Source: Nitrospira sp. (lineage in GTDB: Bacteria; Nitrospirota; Nitrospiria; Nitrospirales; Nitrospiraceae). From it: a stretch of 64,000 nucleotides of DNA. Shown one piece after another: positions 1 to 9,470 of this stretch. Made by a program: the position numbers and the translations under genes. The notes below the pieces were generated by a model. That model ran no database searches. It was not told the origin of the DNA and saw nothing but the letters and a program-made list of their open reading frames with translations. Each line of letters starts with the position of its first letter. Within the stretch, counting starts at the first letter, position 1. The stretch covers positions 1 through 64,000 of the forward strand of contig JANDJE010000004.1 of NCBI GenBank assembly GCA_024331095.1. Reading direction: 5' to 3'.

Positions 1-423
1 GAAGCTCAGCAAAACGTTGAGGCGATAGGCGAAGGCATCATAACGCGATCGCCTGGGAAATCGCCATGCACCGCCTCCGGAACCACCGAGCCGATGGCCT
101 GTGGCCGCGGCTCGAACGACACGACGAGTCGATCGTAACAATCATACTCCGTGCGACACATCGCAGGCCGGTGCTCAGAGAGAATCAGTGAGAAGATATG
201 GGAAACGCGGCCAGACTGGCACGACCACTCGGGCAGACTGACTGCCAACCGACGGACCTATGGCGAGTGGCTGACGAGCGACGGCCTTCATACCGTCGTC
301 CCCTCCACATCAAAAACATCGCCGGCGTCTCCGGTTTCGCAGGAGCGACCACACTATTCTCCGAGACCGACATGCTGGCACGGGGTGACCTGTCTGGCCC
401 ATACCGCACAACCTTCTCCTTCA

Positions 424-963
424 TCACATCGTTCTCAGCACCCGAGTGACTCTTGCAAGTAAACCTTTCAAACCTGGCGTCGGGCATCCAGGACAATGTC
501 CGAATGCCCCCGGGATCCGCCTCGGCCAGACACCACCCCAACTCGTGCAGGTACCGCCGACTACGCTAGTCGCGAGATTCGGATGATGCTGCTGGCGAAG
601 AGGCGCGCTACATGAGAGGATCGTAGGCGTACTCACGCACCATGCTATTCTTCTGCTGCCCAACGCAATCGCGATAACCAGCGGCAGCGGAGCGCCGCCG
701 GGTTCATCGCTATGTGAGGCGCTTCGCCGTCGAGCCACCGCCCGACGTTGTTGTCGAAGAACCGGTGCCAGAGCCCGGAGCGCCTCGTTCGCAGACGCGC
801 CGTTCGGAAACACGTCCAGAATGTCCGGATCGATGACGACCACGTTCGCACCCTGTCCATACCGCGCGGCTGTGGCCCCACGCACGGCACCAGAAAAGTC
901 GTACTCCGGGCGCATCGTATCACGGTCGTCCGTCCGCCCTTTCCGCCTACCGTTCTTCTTCAT
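424..963 (-). CDS. Putative antitoxin-like protein (MRPEYDFSGAVRG...NVVVIDPDILDVFPNGASANEALRALA); the C-terminal part is probably out of frame
   Basis: ATG at 963 overlaps the end of the BrnT-like gene; the N-terminal ~75 aa look like a small antitoxin, the remainder does not look coding. Confidence 0.45.
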   Translation of the reverse strand: MKKNGRRKGRTDDRDTMRPEYDFSGAVRGATAARYGQGANVVVIDPDILDVFPNGASANEALRALAPVLRQQRRAVARRRSASHSDEPGGAPLPLVIAIALGSRRIAWCVSTPTILSCSAPLRQQHHPNLATSVVGGTCTSWGGVWPRRIPGAFGHCPGCPTPGLKGLLARVTRVLRTM

Positions 964-1243
964 CTCGCCTCCGCTCTTGCCGAGTGGCCCGTCGTGCGGA
1001 AATGAGACGGGTCCGGGGTGGTCGCTCAGCAAACGCCACCACCAGGAGCCTCCATCGGTTTGACATACCCAGCAGCACAGACCGTTCCTCATCCAAGATC
1101 CAAGTGAGTGGTCAGGGTCCGCCATCAAGAGGTTAAGCGGATCACCACTCACCAAAGATCGTCGAGGCTTCATCAAAGGTCACGCCGTGTTTACGGACAT
1201 CCGCTTCCGCTTTCACCTGGTCCCATTCAAAGATGTACCCCAC
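947..1243 (-). pseudogene. Decayed BrnT-like toxin
   Basis: Minus strand, pieced across frames: V-GYIFEWDQVKAEADVRKHGVTFDEASTIFGE / GDPLNLLMADPDHSL / DEERSVLLGMSNRWRLLVVAFAERPPRTRLISARRATRQERRRDEEER*. This follows the BrnT family pattern but needs at least two frameshifts. Confidence 0.7.
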
Positions 1244-1283
1244 TCCCACTCCTCACGCTGTATGGCATCCCCTCGTCCGGTGC

Positions 1284-1342
1284 GCCTAACGGCGCTTGCT
1301 AACCCGCGTCAGTAACGCGTCGGGTTGAGCGGCTAGTTATGC
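1284..1342 (-). repeat. attC-like integron recombination site (attC-1)
   Basis: Minus strand: GCATAAC...CAACCCGACGCGT...CGCGGGTT...GTTAGGC. R''/R' boxes (RYYYAAC / GTTRRRY), imperfect stem with an extra base on the R'' side; contains the TAA stop of the preceding gene. Confidence 0.8.
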
Positions 1343-1597
1343 CGCGGATGTTTCGGTGAACTCCCATCCGGGAAACACCAATACAGCCGGGTGGCACTTC
1401 AACGCCCGAGCTAGCACCTTAGCTCGCTCGACGCCTAAGCTAACGCGATCGTTCTCAATGGCCGATAGCGTCGCCTGCGGGATACCGGTAAGCTTAGAAA
1501 GCTGGTTCTGGCTCAGGCCCTGCAGCTCACGGACAATGCGCACAGACTCGCCGACGGAAACGGCGATCCGCTTCTTCGCTGGTCGATACTGCCTCAT
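1337..1597 (-). CDS. XRE-family HTH antitoxin (HigA-like)
   Basis: 86 aa; VREL-QGLSQNQLSKLTGIPQATLSAIENDRVSLGVERAKVLARAL is a classic HTH_XRE; immediately follows the toxin ORF. Confidence 0.85.
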   Translation of the reverse strand: MRQYRPAKKRIAVSVGESVRIVRELQGLSQNQLSKLTGIPQATLSAIENDRVSLGVERAKVLARALKCHPAVLVFPGWEFTETSAA

Positions 1598-1879
1598 CTA
1601 GGACCTCCGATAATCGCGAGCAGTAATAGAAGCGACCTGGAATAGCTGCTCGTCTGGCACGACTCGATAAACGACCCGGTACTGTAGCCCGAGCCGTGAT
1701 GAGCGGTAGCCTTTCCACTTACCCACCAGAGCTTCGTCGTGAACCCCCTTGATGAGCCGTAGCCCGGTTGGACCGGAGATTACCGTGATATCTTTCCATT
1801 TTTCATAGCGCTTCAAGATGTCGGTCGGGATGGCATCAATCTGCTTATCGACGCGACGATGTTCCTCGATGCGCCACAT
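1598..1879 (-). CDS. RelE/ParE/HigB-like toxin
   Basis: 93 aa; MWRIEEHRRVDKQIDAIPTDILKRYEKWKDI...LQYRVVYRVVPDEQLFQVASITARDYRR; toxin-antitoxin order, stop codon abuts the antitoxin ATG. Confidence 0.8.
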   Translation of the reverse strand: MWRIEEHRRVDKQIDAIPTDILKRYEKWKDITVISGPTGLRLIKGVHDEALVGKWKGYRSSRLGLQYRVVYRVVPDEQLFQVASITARDYRRS

Positions 1880-1933
1880 CTTACATTGTGGCTATACCAT
1901 AAATGGTATGTCAAGGGGTAGTCCAGGCCTGCG

Positions 1934-1996
1934 GCATAACGTTCTTGGTCAGCCGCGCGCAGCTTCATGCGTGTCGGCTGCACCAAGGGGTTAGGC
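1934..1996 (-). repeat. attC-like integron recombination site (attC-2)
   Basis: Minus strand: GCCTAACCCCTTGGTGCAGCCG-ACACGCATGAAGCTGCGCG-CGGCTGACCAAGAACGTTATGC. Stem CTTGGT(G)CAGCCG / CGGCTGACCAAG with one extrahelical base on the R'' side, plus consensus R''/R' boxes. Confidence 0.9.
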
Positions 1997-2003
1997 GGCA
2001 TGC

Positions 2004-3032
2004 TTAACCACCCTTGCTTCCACCTGCCACGCGAATAACTTCCACGATCTGGCTTCCCGGATTCTGGGAACTCTCGCCCTTCACAAAGCCGCTGTCCTGA
2101 GGGGAGAAAATTGATTGCGTCGCCTGAAGAAGCACCGCGTCCTTCGTATTGGCATCGCCAGTTCCCTTGACGAAGGTCTCAAAGGAGCTAAGGGCATTCT
2201 GGCGATGACGATTTACGACAAAGTTGTGCTGGCTAGCAGCAAAGTTGCGCGCGCACCAGACCAACCCAAACGTGAGAACGAAGATTACTACGAGCCTTGG
2301 AACGATCAGTTGAAATGCGCGTGGAAGCGTTGTGGCGCTGAGATCATTCAGCTGCGGCCCCAGGCTCCAGAGGGCGTAGACGATGGTGGCAACAGCAAAA
2401 GCGGCCGCTCCGAGAAGCCAATATGCTGATTGCCTCTTATGGAATTCTGCTTCGTCTTTGAAGTGAATGGCGTGTTGGGCAACTCAGGCCTCTGCCGCCG
2501 CCTGGCGTACGCGCTCAAGTGCGCCTTGCATCTCTGCCAAGATTTTGTCTTTCTCGGTTTTGAATTCTCCGGCTAGCTGCTTTTGGAGCGCGAGCGTCCC
2601 GCGTGCCTCCCTCTCAAGCGCATCGAAATCTGTACCCCTACGAATGGCGTATGAGATGTGGGGGGTGACACCGGAGTAGTACGTGTGCCACTGATCACGT
2701 AACTGCTGAATGAGTGAGTCGCGCGCCTGAACCGGGTTTTGAGGGTATTGCTGAATCGAGAAACCTTGTATCTGCTTGAAGTAACTCAACACCTGATTCG
2801 CCTGACTATGCAACTGATTGAGGGTTTCGTAGGGGAAGCTGTCGAGATTGCATTCCGAAAGGTCCTTGAAAAGTCCCAGCGTTCGGCGAAATACGGGCAA
2901 ACCAGTCTCAAAGCTAAGGTCTTTGCCTAGGACATCGGCGCGAACGAGTGATTCAGGCTGAATCGCGTTGAGCTCTCCTAGCACCTTTCGAAGCTCGTCG
3001 TGCTGCTGCTTCTCCTGCTCGAATGTGGCCAT
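2004..3032 (-). pseudogene. Coiled-coil / two-TM membrane protein interrupted by a single in-frame TGA (2484-2486)
   Basis: ORF 2484-3032 continues in the same frame after TGA as VAQHAIHFKDEAEFHKRQSAYWLLGAAAFAVATIVYALWSLGPQ...FVLTFGLVWCARNFAASQHNFVVNRHRQNALSSFETFVKG... to the stop at 2004; no other stop in between. Confidence 0.75.
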
Positions 3033-3057
3033 CGTGTCTCCCTGCTAGTTCCTTGCC

Positions 3058-3120
3058 GCCCAAGGTCCCGGTTGAGCGGCGGGCCGCGCTGCGGACCGTC
3101 CGCTGCAACCGGTTGTTCGC
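3058..3120 (-). repeat. Degenerate attC-like site (attC-3)
   Basis: Minus strand: GCGAACAACCGGTTGCAGCGGACGG...CCGCTCAACCGGGACCTTGGGC. Stem CCGGTTG(C)AGCGG / CCGCTCAACCGG with one extra base on the R'' side; terminal boxes deviate from consensus (C|TTGGGC). Confidence 0.65.
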
Positions 3121-3126
3121 TGCTCT

Positions 3127-3687
3127 TTATTCATCCACATGGAACTTCCGCTTCAGAAAGTCGAATATCTCCTCCTGCTCCGCCCTGGGGAGCTTCCTGA
3201 TTCTCGCGAGGAGATTCAGTGCCGTGTCCGAAGGAGGCTGTACGTTCGCTCGGCCTTGATTGCACGCCGAACACAGAACGCGGAGATTTTCCTTGTCGTC
3301 CGTTCCCCCCTGGCTGATCGGCTTGATGTGATCGACATGGAGACGAACTTTGCGGTTGGGATTGAACGGGTCAGGATCCCCGGCCCCAGCGCCGCACAAT
3401 TGACAGGTGAAGCCGTTACGCTCCAGAATCTCGTTTCGCAGTTGCGGCGAAATCGCTCGAGCAATGACCGGCTTTCGTTCCAAGGTTTCCAGGATATACT
3501 GTCCGGGCTTGAGATCGGCGCGGTCCACATGGCTCTTGATCTGGTACCCCTCTTCGTCCCGGAGTTCGCGTATGCGTCGGGCATATTCGCTGATGCCGCC
3601 GACGCTCCGAATCTTTTGCGTTGTCACGACCTTCCCCACGTTGGCGATGAAGAAGTCCCGTATTCTGTCTCTGGCTCCCATAGTCAC
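3127..3687 (-). CDS. HNH endonuclease, likely restriction partner of the adjacent methyltransferase
   Basis: 186 aa; RNGFTCQLCGAGAGDPDPFNPNRKVRLHVDHIKPISQGGTDDKENLRVLCSACNQGR is an HNH motif; overlaps vsr by 4 nt. Confidence 0.85.
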   Translation of the reverse strand: MTMGARDRIRDFFIANVGKVVTTQKIRSVGGISEYARRIRELRDEEGYQIKSHVDRADLKPGQYILETLERKPVIARAISPQLRNEILERNGFTCQLCGAGAGDPDPFNPNRKVRLHVDHIKPISQGGTDDKENLRVLCSACNQGRANVQPPSDTALNLLARIRKLPRAEQEEIFDFLKRKFHVDE

Positions 3688-4094
3688 CTCGCAATGAAGC
3701 GCGCAATTCGCCGTTTCAGTCGTTCCTCATCTTTTGTTTGGCACTGCCAAATGACAAGGACGGTCCACCCGGTCTTGCGCAATTTGCGCAGGCTACGGGC
3801 GTCGCGCTTCATGTTTCCTTCGATTTTTCGACTCCAAAACTCTTTGTTCGTTTCGGGTCTGGCTGCCCGTGCACAGCCCTTGTGACCGTGCCAGAAACAC
3901 CCATGCACGAAGATCAACTTCTTTCGTCCGACCAGCGCAAAGTCGGGGGTTCCCGGAATCCTCTCAACATTACTTCGGTAATGACATTTTAGGCGCCGCA
4001 GGCATCTCTTCACCAGTCGTTCAAGTGATGTATTCCGCCCTTTGACGCTTGCCATTATCCGACTTCGTTTCTCGGGCGAAAACCTGTCCGTCAT
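3684..4094 (-). CDS. vsr: Very short patch repair endonuclease (Vsr)
   Basis: MTDRFSPEKRSRIMASVKGRNTSLERLVKRCLRRL...PGTPDFALVGRKKLIFVHGCFWHGHKGC...NKEFWSRKIEGNMKRD matches the Vsr pattern. Confidence 0.93.
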   Translation of the reverse strand: MTDRFSPEKRSRIMASVKGRNTSLERLVKRCLRRLKCHYRSNVERIPGTPDFALVGRKKLIFVHGCFWHGHKGCARAARPETNKEFWSRKIEGNMKRDARSLRKLRKTGWTVLVIWQCQTKDEERLKRRIARFIAR

Positions 4095-5307
4095 GGTTTT
4101 CCTCTTTCGATGCCAGCATGGCGAGAACACAGTCCGCGATCCGCGCGGCCAGCACGGGCGGCACGGCATTGCCGATTTGTTTGGCAATCTCGATCTTCGA
4201 GCCGGTGAATCTGAACGAATCCGGAAACGACTGAAGACGAGCAGCTTCCCGGTGTGTGATAGGGCGATGCTGGCATGGATGCAGATAGCGGCCCTTCTCG
4301 GGCTTGAAGAATTCGGTTCGGATTGTGAAGGCCGGGCGGTCCCACCATAAGCGCCCGAACAAATCCGTCCCGCCTTCCGTTTTCCTAATCCAACACGCAG
4401 GCGTCAGCTTCGGCGCTCTCCTTTGCAAGTCGAAGCGGTTCATTCCTTCGTCCGGAATCGCACGGTACCGCTGCATGCTCATAGGGGTCGGGGTTCGCCC
4501 GAAATGAAGGTCAAGAGGCGGTGGTTCGTTCCTGACTTCCGTTCCCTTCGGAGGCGGAAGGTCTCCGATGGCGTCCCGAACTGTTCGCCACGGTCTTGGC
4601 CGTGCCACGTACATGTCGAATTCTTCAGAGAAAAGCATGCCTGTTTCGACATCGCCGGGACGGCGATGAGTCTTCTTCGGGGGGAAGAAGGCGCTCGGAT
4701 GCGTGAATTTGCATCCGACGATGAAAGCACGCCAGCGGGTCTGAGGTACGCCGTAGTCGGCAGCGCAGAGCTTGGCAAAAGCCATCTTGAAACCCAGCGA
4801 GTGCGCGACTTCGGCGATTTCTTCGTGTTCGGCCGATCCGAGGAGTTGCGGAACGTTTTCCATCACAAAGATTTCTGCCCCGCAATGCTCCACTATTTGG
4901 AGGTACGGTCTCCAGAGTTGCTTCCGGGGATCGCCGTTGCGTTGCTTGTTCAGCAGGCTGAATCCTTGGCACGGCGGCCCGCCGATCACGACATCCGCCC
5001 TCGGTATCTCGTCGATTCGGTCCTTCACCAGTTCCAAAATGTCGTCGGTCGTGCAATGCTCTCCAAAATTTGTGTTGTAGGTTTTGGCGGCGTAAGCGTT
5101 GAAGTCATTGGCCCAGACAGGGACGAACACATGACCGAGAGATTCCGTGAAGCCGAGCGTCATGCCCCCTGCACCGGCAAAAAGGTCGATAAGGTCATAG
5201 GTGCTACTGCTCTCTCGTACCAGAAGACCTTTCTGCCGCGCACGGTAGACCGATTCATCGTCGCACAGCATGTCGTATCGAAGCGGGATTCTATACTTCT
5301 TGTTCAT
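4021..5307 (-). CDS. dcm: DNA (cytosine-5-)-methyltransferase
   Basis: DLFAGAGGMTLGF, GGPPCQGFSLLNKQR, VMENVPQLL and C-terminal QIGNAVPP motifs of C5 methyltransferases. Confidence 0.93.
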   Translation of the reverse strand: MNKKYRIPLRYDMLCDDESVYRARQKGLLVRESSSTYDLIDLFAGAGGMTLGFTESLGHVFVPVWANDFNAYAAKTYNTNFGEHCTTDDILELVKDRIDEIPRADVVIGGPPCQGFSLLNKQRNGDPRKQLWRPYLQIVEHCGAEIFVMENVPQLLGSAEHEEIAEVAHSLGFKMAFAKLCAADYGVPQTRWRAFIVGCKFTHPSAFFPPKKTHRRPGDVETGMLFSEEFDMYVARPRPWRTVRDAIGDLPPPKGTEVRNEPPPLDLHFGRTPTPMSMQRYRAIPDEGMNRFDLQRRAPKLTPACWIRKTEGGTDLFGRLWWDRPAFTIRTEFFKPEKGRYLHPCQHRPITHREAARLQSFPDSFRFTGSKIEIAKQIGNAVPPVLAARIADCVLAMLASKEENHDGQVFARETKSDNGKRQRAEYIT

Positions 5308-5380
5308 GGATCTGTCATCCCAGATACTAGTGCCCCAGTGAAGTCGGTGTGTTTGCTTTCTTCATACAGCAATGAGTACA

Positions 5381-5511
5381 TTGGTCAGCCTATCCCGTCC
5401 AACTGACTTCTTAATTCTGGCCAATCGTAATAAGCTTTTTCCATACTCAGCAAGACTGTTCCCACCCCTCTGGAGCCTGACAAACACTGCATGCTTGGTC
5501 AGCCTATCCCG
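5381..5511. repeat. 17-bp direct repeat pair TTGGTCAGCCTATCCCG (5381-5397 and 5495-5511)
   Basis: Exact repeat, 114-bp offset, in the non-coding gap between dcm and the integrase remnant. Confidence 0.9.
5397..5403 (-). other. Candidate attI-type simple site (G|TTGGAC)
   Basis: GTTRRRY core on the minus strand, between the integrase remnant and the first cassette gene, adjoining one copy of a 17-bp direct repeat. Confidence 0.4.
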
Positions 5512-5562
5512 GCGCACCTTCACAGCTCTCTACTCTATCTGCCAGGGTGTTGGCAGGTCCTA

Positions 5563-5863
5563 TCACAGGCAGTCAGCCGGGCTGTGGACTCCTCGGCCGC
5601 CACGGTTTAGGACATGTGCGTAGATCATCGTCGTGCTCACATCCCTGTGGCCCAGCAGCTCTTGGACCGTCCGAATATCATACCCGTCCTCCAGCAGGTG
5701 GGTGGCCAAGGAATGGCGCAACGTACGGCAGCTTGCCGGCTTGGAAATCCGGGCTTTTAGTCTGGCTGTCTTGAAAGCGCTGGAGGACGGATTCGTGCAC
5801 GTGGTGCCTGCGCCGTTCACCGGTGATGCGATCGGTGTAATGGCTGGCGGCGGAGAAGGTCCA
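5563..5863 (-). pseudogene. Integron integrase (IntI-type tyrosine recombinase) C-terminal remnant, frameshifted
   Basis: [28 protein letters not shown] (one frame) then [71 protein letters not shown] (next frame); typical IntI C-terminus with catalytic HxLR, LGH and Y. Confidence 0.88.
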
Positions 5864-5909
5864 TGTTCACAGGTCGGGAGGCTCCACTGAGAGCGGAGCC
5901 CTTTCTCCC

Positions 5910-8900
5910 TTACGAGCAGCCGCTCGTGGCGCCGCAAGTGACGCACTTCAGGCACGTGCCGTTGCGGACCATCGTGAACTGTTTGCACTCGGGGCAGGGG
6001 TCTCCCTCGTATCCCTTCACCTTGGCGCTCTGCACTTCCGTCAGGGTCAGGGTTTCTCGCTTAATTTCGACCTGCCTGGCCACGCTGTGACCATTGTCAT
6101 GACTTCTGCCTCTCCCTCCGTTCCGACGAGCGGGCAGATGTTCCGTGAGGACCGCGGAGGTGGCCAAGGTCTTGAGATCCGCTTCCTCTTCCACGCACTC
6201 GGGATCCATGTCGTCCTTTTTCATGGAATCCATCCGCAGATCTTCTTCCTTGACCTGCGCCAGGTCGTAGCGGTCCAAATACGTGATCGCCAGCTCCCGG
6301 AAAATGTAGTCGATGATCGAGGTCGACATTTTGATGCGGTCGTTCAGCTTGACCGGCCCGTTGGGTTCGAACCTGGTGAAGACGAACGCTTCGACGAACT
6401 CTTCGAGCGGGACGCCGTGTTGCAAGCCGAGAGAAATGGCGATGGCGAAACAATTCATGAGGCTGCGGAACGCCGCCCCTTCCTTGTGCATGTCGAGGAA
6501 AATTTCGCCGACGGTTCCGTCCTCGTATTCGCCGGTTCGAAGATACAATTTATGCCCGCCGATGATCGCCTTCTGCGTATAGCCGTTCCGCCGGCTCGGC
6601 AAGGGCCGCCGCTTGGCCAGGTATCGGACCAGCACGCGCTCGGTCACTTTCTCAGCGGCCGCCTCCACTGCGCCCGCGGCCTCCGTCGTTTTTCCGTTAT
6701 CGGTCGAGGCGCTCAACGGCTGGCTCAGTTTCGAGCCGTCCCGATAAATCGCCACCGCCTTGACCATGCTTTCCCAGGCCAGCCGATAGGCGTTCTTGAC
6801 GTCTTCGACCGTGGCGTCGTGCGGCATGTTGATCGTTTTGCTGATCGCGCCGCTGATGAACGGCTGCGCCGCGGCCATCATGCGGATGTGGGCGTCGACG
6901 GCGATGGCGCGACGGCCGATCCGACCGCAGCGATTGGCGCAGTCGAAGACCGGCAGGTGCTCGGCCTTCAAGTGCGGCGCCCCCTCCACCGTCATCGTCC
7001 CGCAACAATAATCATTCGCGGCGGCGATTTCTTCCTGCGTGAAGCCGAGCGCCTTGAGCATGTTGAAGGAGGGGCTGTTCAATTGGCTTTCGCTGAACCC
7101 CAATTTCTCCGTGCAAAAGGATTCTCCCAACATGAATTTGTTAAAGGCGAACTGGATGTCAAACGCCTGAGCCAGGCCGTTTTCGACACGGGTCAGCGCC
7201 TCGTCGTCGAATCCCTTCGACCGCAACGATTCATGGTTGATGAACGGCGCCTGCTTGAGGGTTTGCGCGCCGACGCAGTAGCGCACGATGTCCTGGACTT
7301 GTCCCTCCGTGTACCCCAGCGTCGACAACGCGAGCGGCAAACTCTGATTGATGATCTTAAAGTACCCGCCGCCGGCCAATTTCTTGAATTTCACCAGGGC
7401 AAAGTCCGGCTCGATTCCGGTGGTGTCGCAATCCATCACCAATCCGATCGTGCCGGTCGGAGCGATGACCGTCACTTGCGCGTTGCGATACCCGTAGGCC
7501 GTCCCCAGCTCGAGCGCCCGGTCCCACGCCCGCCTGGCGGCAAGCAGGAGATCGGGCGGACAATTCTCCGGTTGAATCCCCGTCGGTTTGATCGTCAGTC
7601 CCTCATATTCCTCACGCGAGGCGTTGTAGGCCGCCCGGCGGTGATTGCGGATCACCCGCAGCATATGATCGCGGTTCTTCGCGTAGCCCGGGAACGGTCC
7701 CAATTCGGCGGCCATTTCCGCCGACGTGCCGTAGGCCTCGCCGGTCATGATGGCGCTGATGGCACCGCAAATCGCACGGGCCTTGGGCGAATCATAGGGA
7801 ATCCCTTGGCGCATCAGCACCGTGCCCAAATTGGCATACCCCAAGCCGAGCGTTCTGAACCGATAGCTCTTCTCCGCGATCGACCGACTGGGAAACGACG
7901 CCATCAACACGCTGATTTCCAATACGATCGTCCACAGCCGCACGGCGTGCCGGAAGTTTTCCAGCTCGAACCGCCCGTCAAGGGTATAAAACGCCGCCAG
8001 ATTGAGCGAGGCCAAGTTGCAGGCCGTATCGTCCAAAAACATGTATTCCGAACAGGGATTCGATGCATTGATTCGCCCGTCTTCCGGACAGGTATGCCAT
8101 TCGTTGATCGTCGTATCGTACTGGGTCCCAGGATCCGCACAGACCCACGCGGCCCAGGCGATCCGATCCCACAGATCGCGGGCCTTGAGGGTTTTGCAGA
8201 CCTTGCCGTCGATCCGGCGCGTGAGATGCCAATCGCCGTCGGCGTCAAGGGCGGCGAAAAACTCGTTGGGTATTCTCACGCTGTTGTTTGAATTCTGCCC
8301 CGACACGGTTTGATAGGCCTTGCCGTCCCAGTTGGTGTCGTATTCGTGAAAGACGAAATGCGTGAATCCCTGCTGCGCGTAAGAAAACATTCGCTGGATA
8401 TAGGCCTCCGGCACCATGTCTCTTCGCGCCTGCGCCAAGGCTTCCCGCAAGATCGGATTCGTCTTGGGATCGAGGTCCAGTTTCAAGGCCCCTTGGCCGT
8501 CGACGACGTGACACGCCTTCAGCACGCCGTTCAGGCGTTGCGCGCAAATTTTCGACCCGGTCACCATCGCCGCGACTTTCTGTTCTTCGATCACTTTCCA
8601 CTCGATAAATTCTTCGATGTCGGGGTGGTCCAGGTCCAGACAGACCATCTTGGCGGCGCGCCTGGTCGTTCCGCCCGATTTAATCGCGCCGGCGGCCCGA
8701 TCACCGATCTTGAGAAAAGACATCAGGCCCGACGACTTGCCTCCGCCGGACAGTCCTTCCCCCTCGCCCCGCAGTTTGGAGAAGTTGGTGCCGGTCCCGG
8801 AGCCGTACTTGAACAATCTGGCCTCGCGAACCCAGAGATCCATGATGCCGTTTTCGTTGACCAGATCGTCCTCGATCGACTGGATGAAACAGGCATGGGG

Positions 8901-9437
8901 CTGAGGATGTTCGAACGCGTTCGTCGCCCTGACGACTTCGCGGGTGGCGGGATCGACGTAATAGTGCCCCTGCGCCGGGCCCGATAACCCATACGCATAA
9001 TGGAGGCCCGTGTTGAACCACTGCGGGGAATTCGGGGCGGCCATCTGCCGCGCCAGCATGTAACACATTTCGTCATGGAAAGCCTCGGCGTCCTCCGGTG
9101 TTGTGAAGTAGCCGTACGACTTTCCCCAGTGCGTCCAGCATCCGGCCATTCGCTCGAAGACTTGGCGCGCATCGCGTTCCCCGCCCAACAGGGGTTTCCC
9201 ATCCGGTCCCGTCAGCATTTGTCCCTGCGGATCACACTGCGGCACTCCCGCTTTTCGGAAATATTTCTGAGCCAAAATATCGACGGCCAATTGAGACCAT
9301 TGCTCCGGCACATCGATGTTGTCGAGTTTGAATACAACGGACCCGTCCGGATTGCGAATTTCGGACGACCGCTTGACGAACGTGATCCCGTCGTAGGGAC
9401 TCCGACCGCGATGGGTGAATCTTCGTTCAATCCTCAC
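5910..9437 (-). CDS. nrdJ: Vitamin B12-dependent (class II) ribonucleotide reductase
   Basis: Start set at GTG 9437 with AAGGAGG upstream; [38 protein letters not shown]-terminal [22 protein letters not shown]. Confidence 0.95.
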
Positions 9438-9470
9438 GGGATTCCTCCTTGGTAGAAACAACACCGCCTA

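Follow-up and report, generated by a model that had tools for sequence, protein, structure and literature searches.

The window analysed here is the first 64,000 nucleotides (bases 1-64000) of contig C57 (JANDJE010000004.1) of a Nitrospira metagenome-assembled genome (MAG; GCA_024331095.1; 2.64 Mb, 115 contigs, 80% complete). The 5.9 kb lying left of nrdJ, which encodes a vitamin B12-dependent ribonucleotide reductase, very probably hold a decayed chromosomal integron of the inverted type, in which the integrase gene intI is co-directional with its cassettes and the insertion site attI lies 3' of intI. Read along the minus strand, the order is a remnant of the integron integrase IntI, a remnant of attI, a Dcm-Vsr-HNH module, attC site 3, two open reading frames (ORFs), attC site 2, an Xre/RelE pair, attC site 1 and a terminal segment, as detailed below (C64 is another contig of the same MAG, L047 is the corresponding locus of the sister genome G145, and L059 is another locus with an intI stub).

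1-1283, minus strand: terminal part of the array, reaching the chromosomal flank, 95.9% identical to C64 474-1764, with a possible decayed attC at 658-720 (E = 0.06)
1284-1342, minus strand: attC site 1, whose R' core GTTAGGC marks exactly where C64 switches to a different attC
1337-1597, minus strand: candidate Xre-type helix-turn-helix (HTH) antitoxin (PF01381, 1.7e-14), pairing with the next ORF
1598-1879, minus strand: candidate RelE-like toxin of a toxin-antitoxin cassette (TIGR02385, 6.5e-6, slightly below the cut-off of the model)
1934-1996, minus strand: attC site 2
2004-2264, minus strand: cassette ORF of 86 aa, function not assigned, with a 37% relative adjoining another intI stub (L059 9767-10009)
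2484-3032, minus strand: cassette ORF of 182 aa, with a 31% relative adjoining the same stub locus (L059 9026-9388) and no match in Pfam, NCBIfam or PADLOC
3058-3118, minus strand: attC site 3, with a degenerate core (R' CTTGGGC), homologous to the attCs of G145
3127-3687, minus strand: HNH endonuclease (PF01844, 1.6e-12; PADLOC REase_II, 3.5e-13), likely the type II restriction enzyme of the Dcm-Vsr module
3684-4187, minus strand: Vsr mismatch/nicking endonuclease (TIGR00632, 9.5e-37)
4021-5307, minus strand: Dcm-like C5-cytosine DNA methyltransferase, the first gene past attI (TIGR00675, 1.3e-51; Pfam PF00145, 2e-56)
5373-5562, minus strand: spacer between intI and attI, with the left half of attI; conservation extends to TACTCA, and the stretch is 95% identical to L047 5079-5268, which ends at the attI point
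5455-5483, minus strand: sigma-70-like promoter candidate, TTGTCA-17-AACAGT, possibly a cassette promoter (weak alone, z = 1.4)
5563-5863, minus strand: IntI remnant, codons ~216-315, with a frameshift and a stop codon at 5563-5565
5854-5891, no strand assigned: deletion scar of 38 nt in place of ~1.44 kb of G145 (the region upstream of intI together with IntI codons 1 to ~215)
5910-9464, minus strand: nrdJ (NCBIfam NF005736, 1974 bits), the fixed neighbour of the integron, also adjoining the intact integrons of G145 and G149

The IntI remnant was split over two frames, with codons 216-244 at 5777-5863 and codons 245-315 at 5566-5778, the longer part being 93% identical to the IntI of G145. 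It matched the NCBIfam integron integrase model (TIGR02249) at 2e-31 compared to 1.2e-19 for XerD, and in a tree of 63 rows, with the two Xer proteins of the genome itself as outgroup, it clustered with the IntIs of G145 and G149 (support 99/93). An earlier note on this DNA, made from the letters alone, had taken the fragment for IntI rather than XerC or a phage integrase; both the family ranking and the tree placement agree with it, and the fragment is an IntI pseudogene, not Xer. As the same note had described, it lies on the minus strand with its 3' end facing the array, and the polarity of the attC sites matches.

The losses were delimited against G145 (C176, L047), whose nrdJ product is 98.8% identical over 992 residues and whose locus has an intact intI followed by the same attI block and by attCs, in the order and orientation of the window. 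Window 5373-5853 aligned at 95% and the sequence from 5892 onward at 95.6% (blastn breakpoints at window 5853/5892 and L047 5561/7002); the intervening L047 5562-7001 is gone, and the 38 nt in its place are unrelated. The coding part of the remnant has in addition a 2-nt deletion relative to G145, which shifts the frame near position 5777. Both the truncation next to nrdJ and the frameshift, noticed earlier, are real, and the lost parts can be read from intact sisters. The same arrangement was present in G149 (C266, L194), with an intact IntI 90% identical; as the intact state is common to both close relatives, that of the window is derived.

Past the intI stop, close relatives have GGATAGGCTGACCAATCTACTCAATA^GTT in common, with small variations, and then diverge completely, as expected of an insertion point. 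In the window the block is present up to TACTCA and attI reads TACTCATTGCTG, the ATA^GTT core of the relatives, where attI is complete, being absent. Overall, the junctions in the sequence comparisons change exactly at attI and attC cores. Genome G075 contains two copies of the block that match at 99.4% over 495 bp, as far as the core, and then lead into different cassettes. This 495-bp piece (L072 7448-7941 and L041 13120-12626) comprises IntI codons 220-315 and attI, with different upstream DNA in the two copies, and reflects strain variation or else the copying of an attI platform. Concerning transcription, the sigma-70-like signal over 26 intI-attI spacers, whose rows are not independent, had a mean z of +1.41 on the cassette strand compared to -0.41 on the antisense strand, which is suggestive only of a cassette promoter in the spacer.

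A geometric scan for the R''/L''/L'/R' structure with an extra base in L'' detected only 1284-1342 and 1934-1996 in the 64 kb; both lie on the minus strand, carry the bulge in L'' and score 30 and 33 respectively (best score in 640 kb of shuffled sequence: 29). A covariance model was built from 26 attCs of other genomes, including a class 1 integron control and leaving out the sites of the window (15 pairs, 93.8% of cells paired, covariation of 0.425 compared to 0.142 for the shuffled alignment). Its top three hits in the window, all on the minus strand, were 1934-1996 (E = 8.7e-10), 1284-1342 (E = 4.3e-8) and 3058-3118 (E = 6.6e-5), followed by a fourth at E = 0.063. The three attCs proposed earlier thus score far above background and share one polarity. 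The R''/L''/L'/R' structure with its L'' bulge is present at the attCs of the window. Site 3, 88.7% identical over 62 nt to the attCs of G145, retains its stem, and its core is judged damaged because its R' box, CTTGGGC, departs from the expected GTTRRRY (CTT for GTT). The MAG has further attCs on contigs C41, C30 and C64.

As base 1 of the window is the end of C57, no direct leftward extension was possible and the distal side of the array was taken from C64. Window 1-1290 corresponds to C64 1764-474 at 95.9% identity; the match starts exactly at the R' core GTTAGGC of attC site 1, and upstream of it C64 bears a different attC. From position 1753 on, C64 carries the chromosomal flank found beside nrdJ in integron-less relatives, including what we take, from its sequence alone, to be a DNA ligase gene. 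In G163 and G164 this flank follows nrdJ at a distance of 670 bp and 2.97 kb, respectively, so the integron occupies the interval between nrdJ and the flank. In G139 the interval carries an attI block with no detectable intI (L196 2164-2333, G139:C4; 5.6 kb from nrdJ). Judging from these alignments, the locus appears in intact, 5'-deleted, integrase-less and unoccupied states among relatives. Within the MAG itself, the two versions of the array end (the window and L184, G000:C64) differ exactly from the attC R' core onward, which suggests strain-level cassette exchange or mixed strains.

The layout was scored, from the side and strand of the attCs relative to intI, at 80 named loci of many phyla, two plasmid loci (one of them a class 1 integron control) and 13 Nitrospiraceae loci. 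Twenty-one of the 46 scorable loci were inverted and 25 classic, including the class 1 control, with no conflicting case; the other 49 had no scorable attC. Every intact Nitrospiraceae intI with scorable attCs was co-directional with them. The inverted layout is the rule in Nitrospiraceae and in a large IntI clade, and not an oddity of this locus. In a tree of 96 rows, 20 inverted rows fell within a 40-row clade free of classic rows, and constraining all 21 inverted rows together was not rejected (approximately unbiased test, p = 0.7). In the Xer-rooted tree one layout change sufficed in 200 of 200 bootstrap trees, the inverted branch itself having a support of only 83/29. This branch included Acidobacteriota, Planctomycetota, Gemmatimonadota, Omnitrophota, Myxococcota, Fibrobacterota and several separate Nitrospiraceae lineages, a spread over many phyla that points to repeated horizontal transfer of inverted IntIs. 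An inverted locus of an Acidobacteria MAG (L112, DAHUXD010000021.1), with three near-perfect attCs (score 35), had an IntI that the larger tree placed outside the main inverted clade and the Xer-rooted tree inside it.

With a probability of about 0.92, the locus as a whole is read as a now decayed sedentary chromosomal integron with the inverted layout, which sits between nrdJ and the flank bearing the presumed DNA ligase gene. In its intact ancestor, intI would have been transcribed toward attI and the cassettes, with everything on one strand. By analogy with IntI and attC biochemistry in other species, the integrase would insert folded cassettes at attI (AATA^GTT), roughly 130-210 nt beyond its own stop, and the candidate promoter in the spacer might transcribe the first of them. 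The ~1.4-kb deletion took the first two thirds of intI and the 2-nt deletion shifted the rest, with damage to the attI core and one attC core, leaving a small fixed array composed of the Dcm-Vsr-HNH restriction-modification module, two ORFs without assigned function and the Xre/RelE pair. Several points weigh against this reading. The source is an incomplete MAG in many contigs, an intact intI may lie in the missing 20%, and C64, 4% divergent from C57, may belong to another strain. In principle, the 2-nt deletion and the damage to the attI core could stem from assembly errors, an explanation that does not easily extend to the ~1.4-kb deletion.

No second intact intI was found among the contigs of this 80%-complete MAG. 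The sole other IntI piece was a 52-codon stub on C41 (30542-30697), with an attC 4.2 kb downstream (26322) on the same strand, again in the inverted layout. With no full-length IntI found and both the attI core and the core of one attC gone, the array is probably frozen and integration dead in this genome. The earlier note had called the array frozen unless a second intI exists; none came to light, and given the completeness of the MAG this part of the claim is likely rather than proven. An integrase encoded elsewhere in the cell, shuffling the array in trans, is the most serious alternative and an improbable one. It would account for the divergence of C57 and C64 exactly from an attC core at the array end, relatives often carry an intact integron and stubs in one genome, and the MAG is incomplete; however, the C41 stub is the only other IntI piece, two recombination cores are damaged, and the difference between C57 and C64 may predate the loss of the integrase or lie between strains.

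Far less credible is an accidental co-directional layout, produced by a local inversion of intI in a classical integron or by an unrelated IntI fragment beside a cluster of attC sites. Truncated intI genes beside attC clusters are common, and Nitrospiraceae hold many IntI stubs at other sites; yet in the sisters a full-length intI is arranged in the same way, separated from the cassettes by a conserved attI, which refutes this explanation, and the layout recurs at every intact Nitrospiraceae intI with scorable attCs. A reading of the attC sites as palindromes arisen by chance, and of the remnant as a piece of XerC/D or of a phage integrase, has nothing in its favour except that inverted repeats are generally abundant in GC-rich DNA. 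It can be dismissed, as it is refuted by covariance E-values between 1e-4 and 1e-9, shuffled sequence that never reached the scores of sites 1 and 2, and the placement of the remnant beside the G145 and G149 IntIs.

As clusters of attC sites lacking integrases (CALINs) are defined by at least two attCs with no integrase gene nearby, a tool needing a full-length IntI would label the locus a CALIN; going by its remnant, it is a decayed complete integron instead. Concerning its content, every ORF with a family match between the sites lies on the minus strand, as the earlier note had stated for the cassette ORFs. The restriction-modification module and the toxin-antitoxin pair, both addictive, may help to retain the array. 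An Rfam search across the window gave no match.

IntI stubs were also surveyed elsewhere. Across 147 Nitrospiraceae genomes, about 40 C-terminal stubs (the C-terminal 50-150 codons) were found compared to 3 N-terminal ones, and C-terminal stubs also prevailed in 40 classical-side genomes (about 7 compared to 4). A loss of the 5' part of intI peculiar to the inverted layout was not supported, since the classical side shows a C-terminal excess too and the C-terminus is the easiest part to detect; the excess in Nitrospiraceae is partly a detection effect. Stubs travelling as cassettes via secondary sites inside intI were likewise rejected, their 5' ends being scattered (codons 110-273) with no preceding attC or shared GTT core. 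One locus (L054, G015:C48, 3529-8600) held three tandem copies of a 1.83-kb direct repeat, ~99% identical. Every copy contained a C-terminal IntI stub, an attI-like block and one cassette-like ORF, together with an HTH/RelE-like pair in antisense. IntI copies with both ends kept and the middle missing (codons ~125-268 or ~181-268) occurred on G209:C136, G209:C317 and G186:C93; G209, the Nitrospinota genome of locus L148, had 21 matches to the integron integrase model. A broader scenario, which we regard as doubtful, is that inverted integrons arose once and spread over many phyla, and that attI and a cassette promoter downstream of intI let 5' integrase loss spare array expression, so that 3' intI stubs with attI would persist in many Nitrospiraceae as working platforms.

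The inverted layout itself is already known. It was published for chromosomal integrons of Treponema denticola and relatives (PMC3607928), reverse-oriented Spirochaetota IntIs have been mentioned (PMC9668308), and an 'inverted integrase group' was named in PMC10500605, following Domingues 2012. As in T. denticola, attI lies between the 3' end of intI and the array; unlike there, the phylum and host gene context are others, intI is two-thirds deleted and attI damaged, and the tree included no Treponema or Rhodopirellula IntI. The likeness to the 'inverted integrase group' is one of layout and phylogeny: integrase phylogeny tracks layout, and the relatives of the remnant are all inverted where scorable; the clade recovered here also includes Nitrospirota, Acidobacteriota, Gemmatimonadota, Omnitrophota, Myxococcota and Fibrobacterota. 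Sedentary integrons of Xanthomonas (PMC12444791) likewise have a conserved insertion beside a housekeeping gene and an ancestral platform with later truncation of intI beside a retained array, but in the classical divergent layout, as scored at Xanthomonas locus L141. The two CALINs that IntegronFinder 2.0 reported in the phylum Nitrospira, both in Candidatus Nitrospira inopinata (PMC9024848), are likewise Nitrospira attC clusters lacking a usable integrase, whereas the present locus has identified integrase and attI remnants and complete integrons in sisters.

No description of complete Nitrospira integrons was found in the open-access literature, and prior credit to nitrifying Nitrospira amounts to those two CALINs in one genome. 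The locus is a decayed example in a host group where complete integrons have hardly been described, and the additions made here are a mapped attI and a test of single origin. With one change sufficing to fit layout to the IntI phylogeny, what was an anecdotal arrangement becomes a heritable trait, and complete inverted integrons, a mapped attI and a decay series at one locus make the layout experimentally testable in nitrifying Nitrospira.
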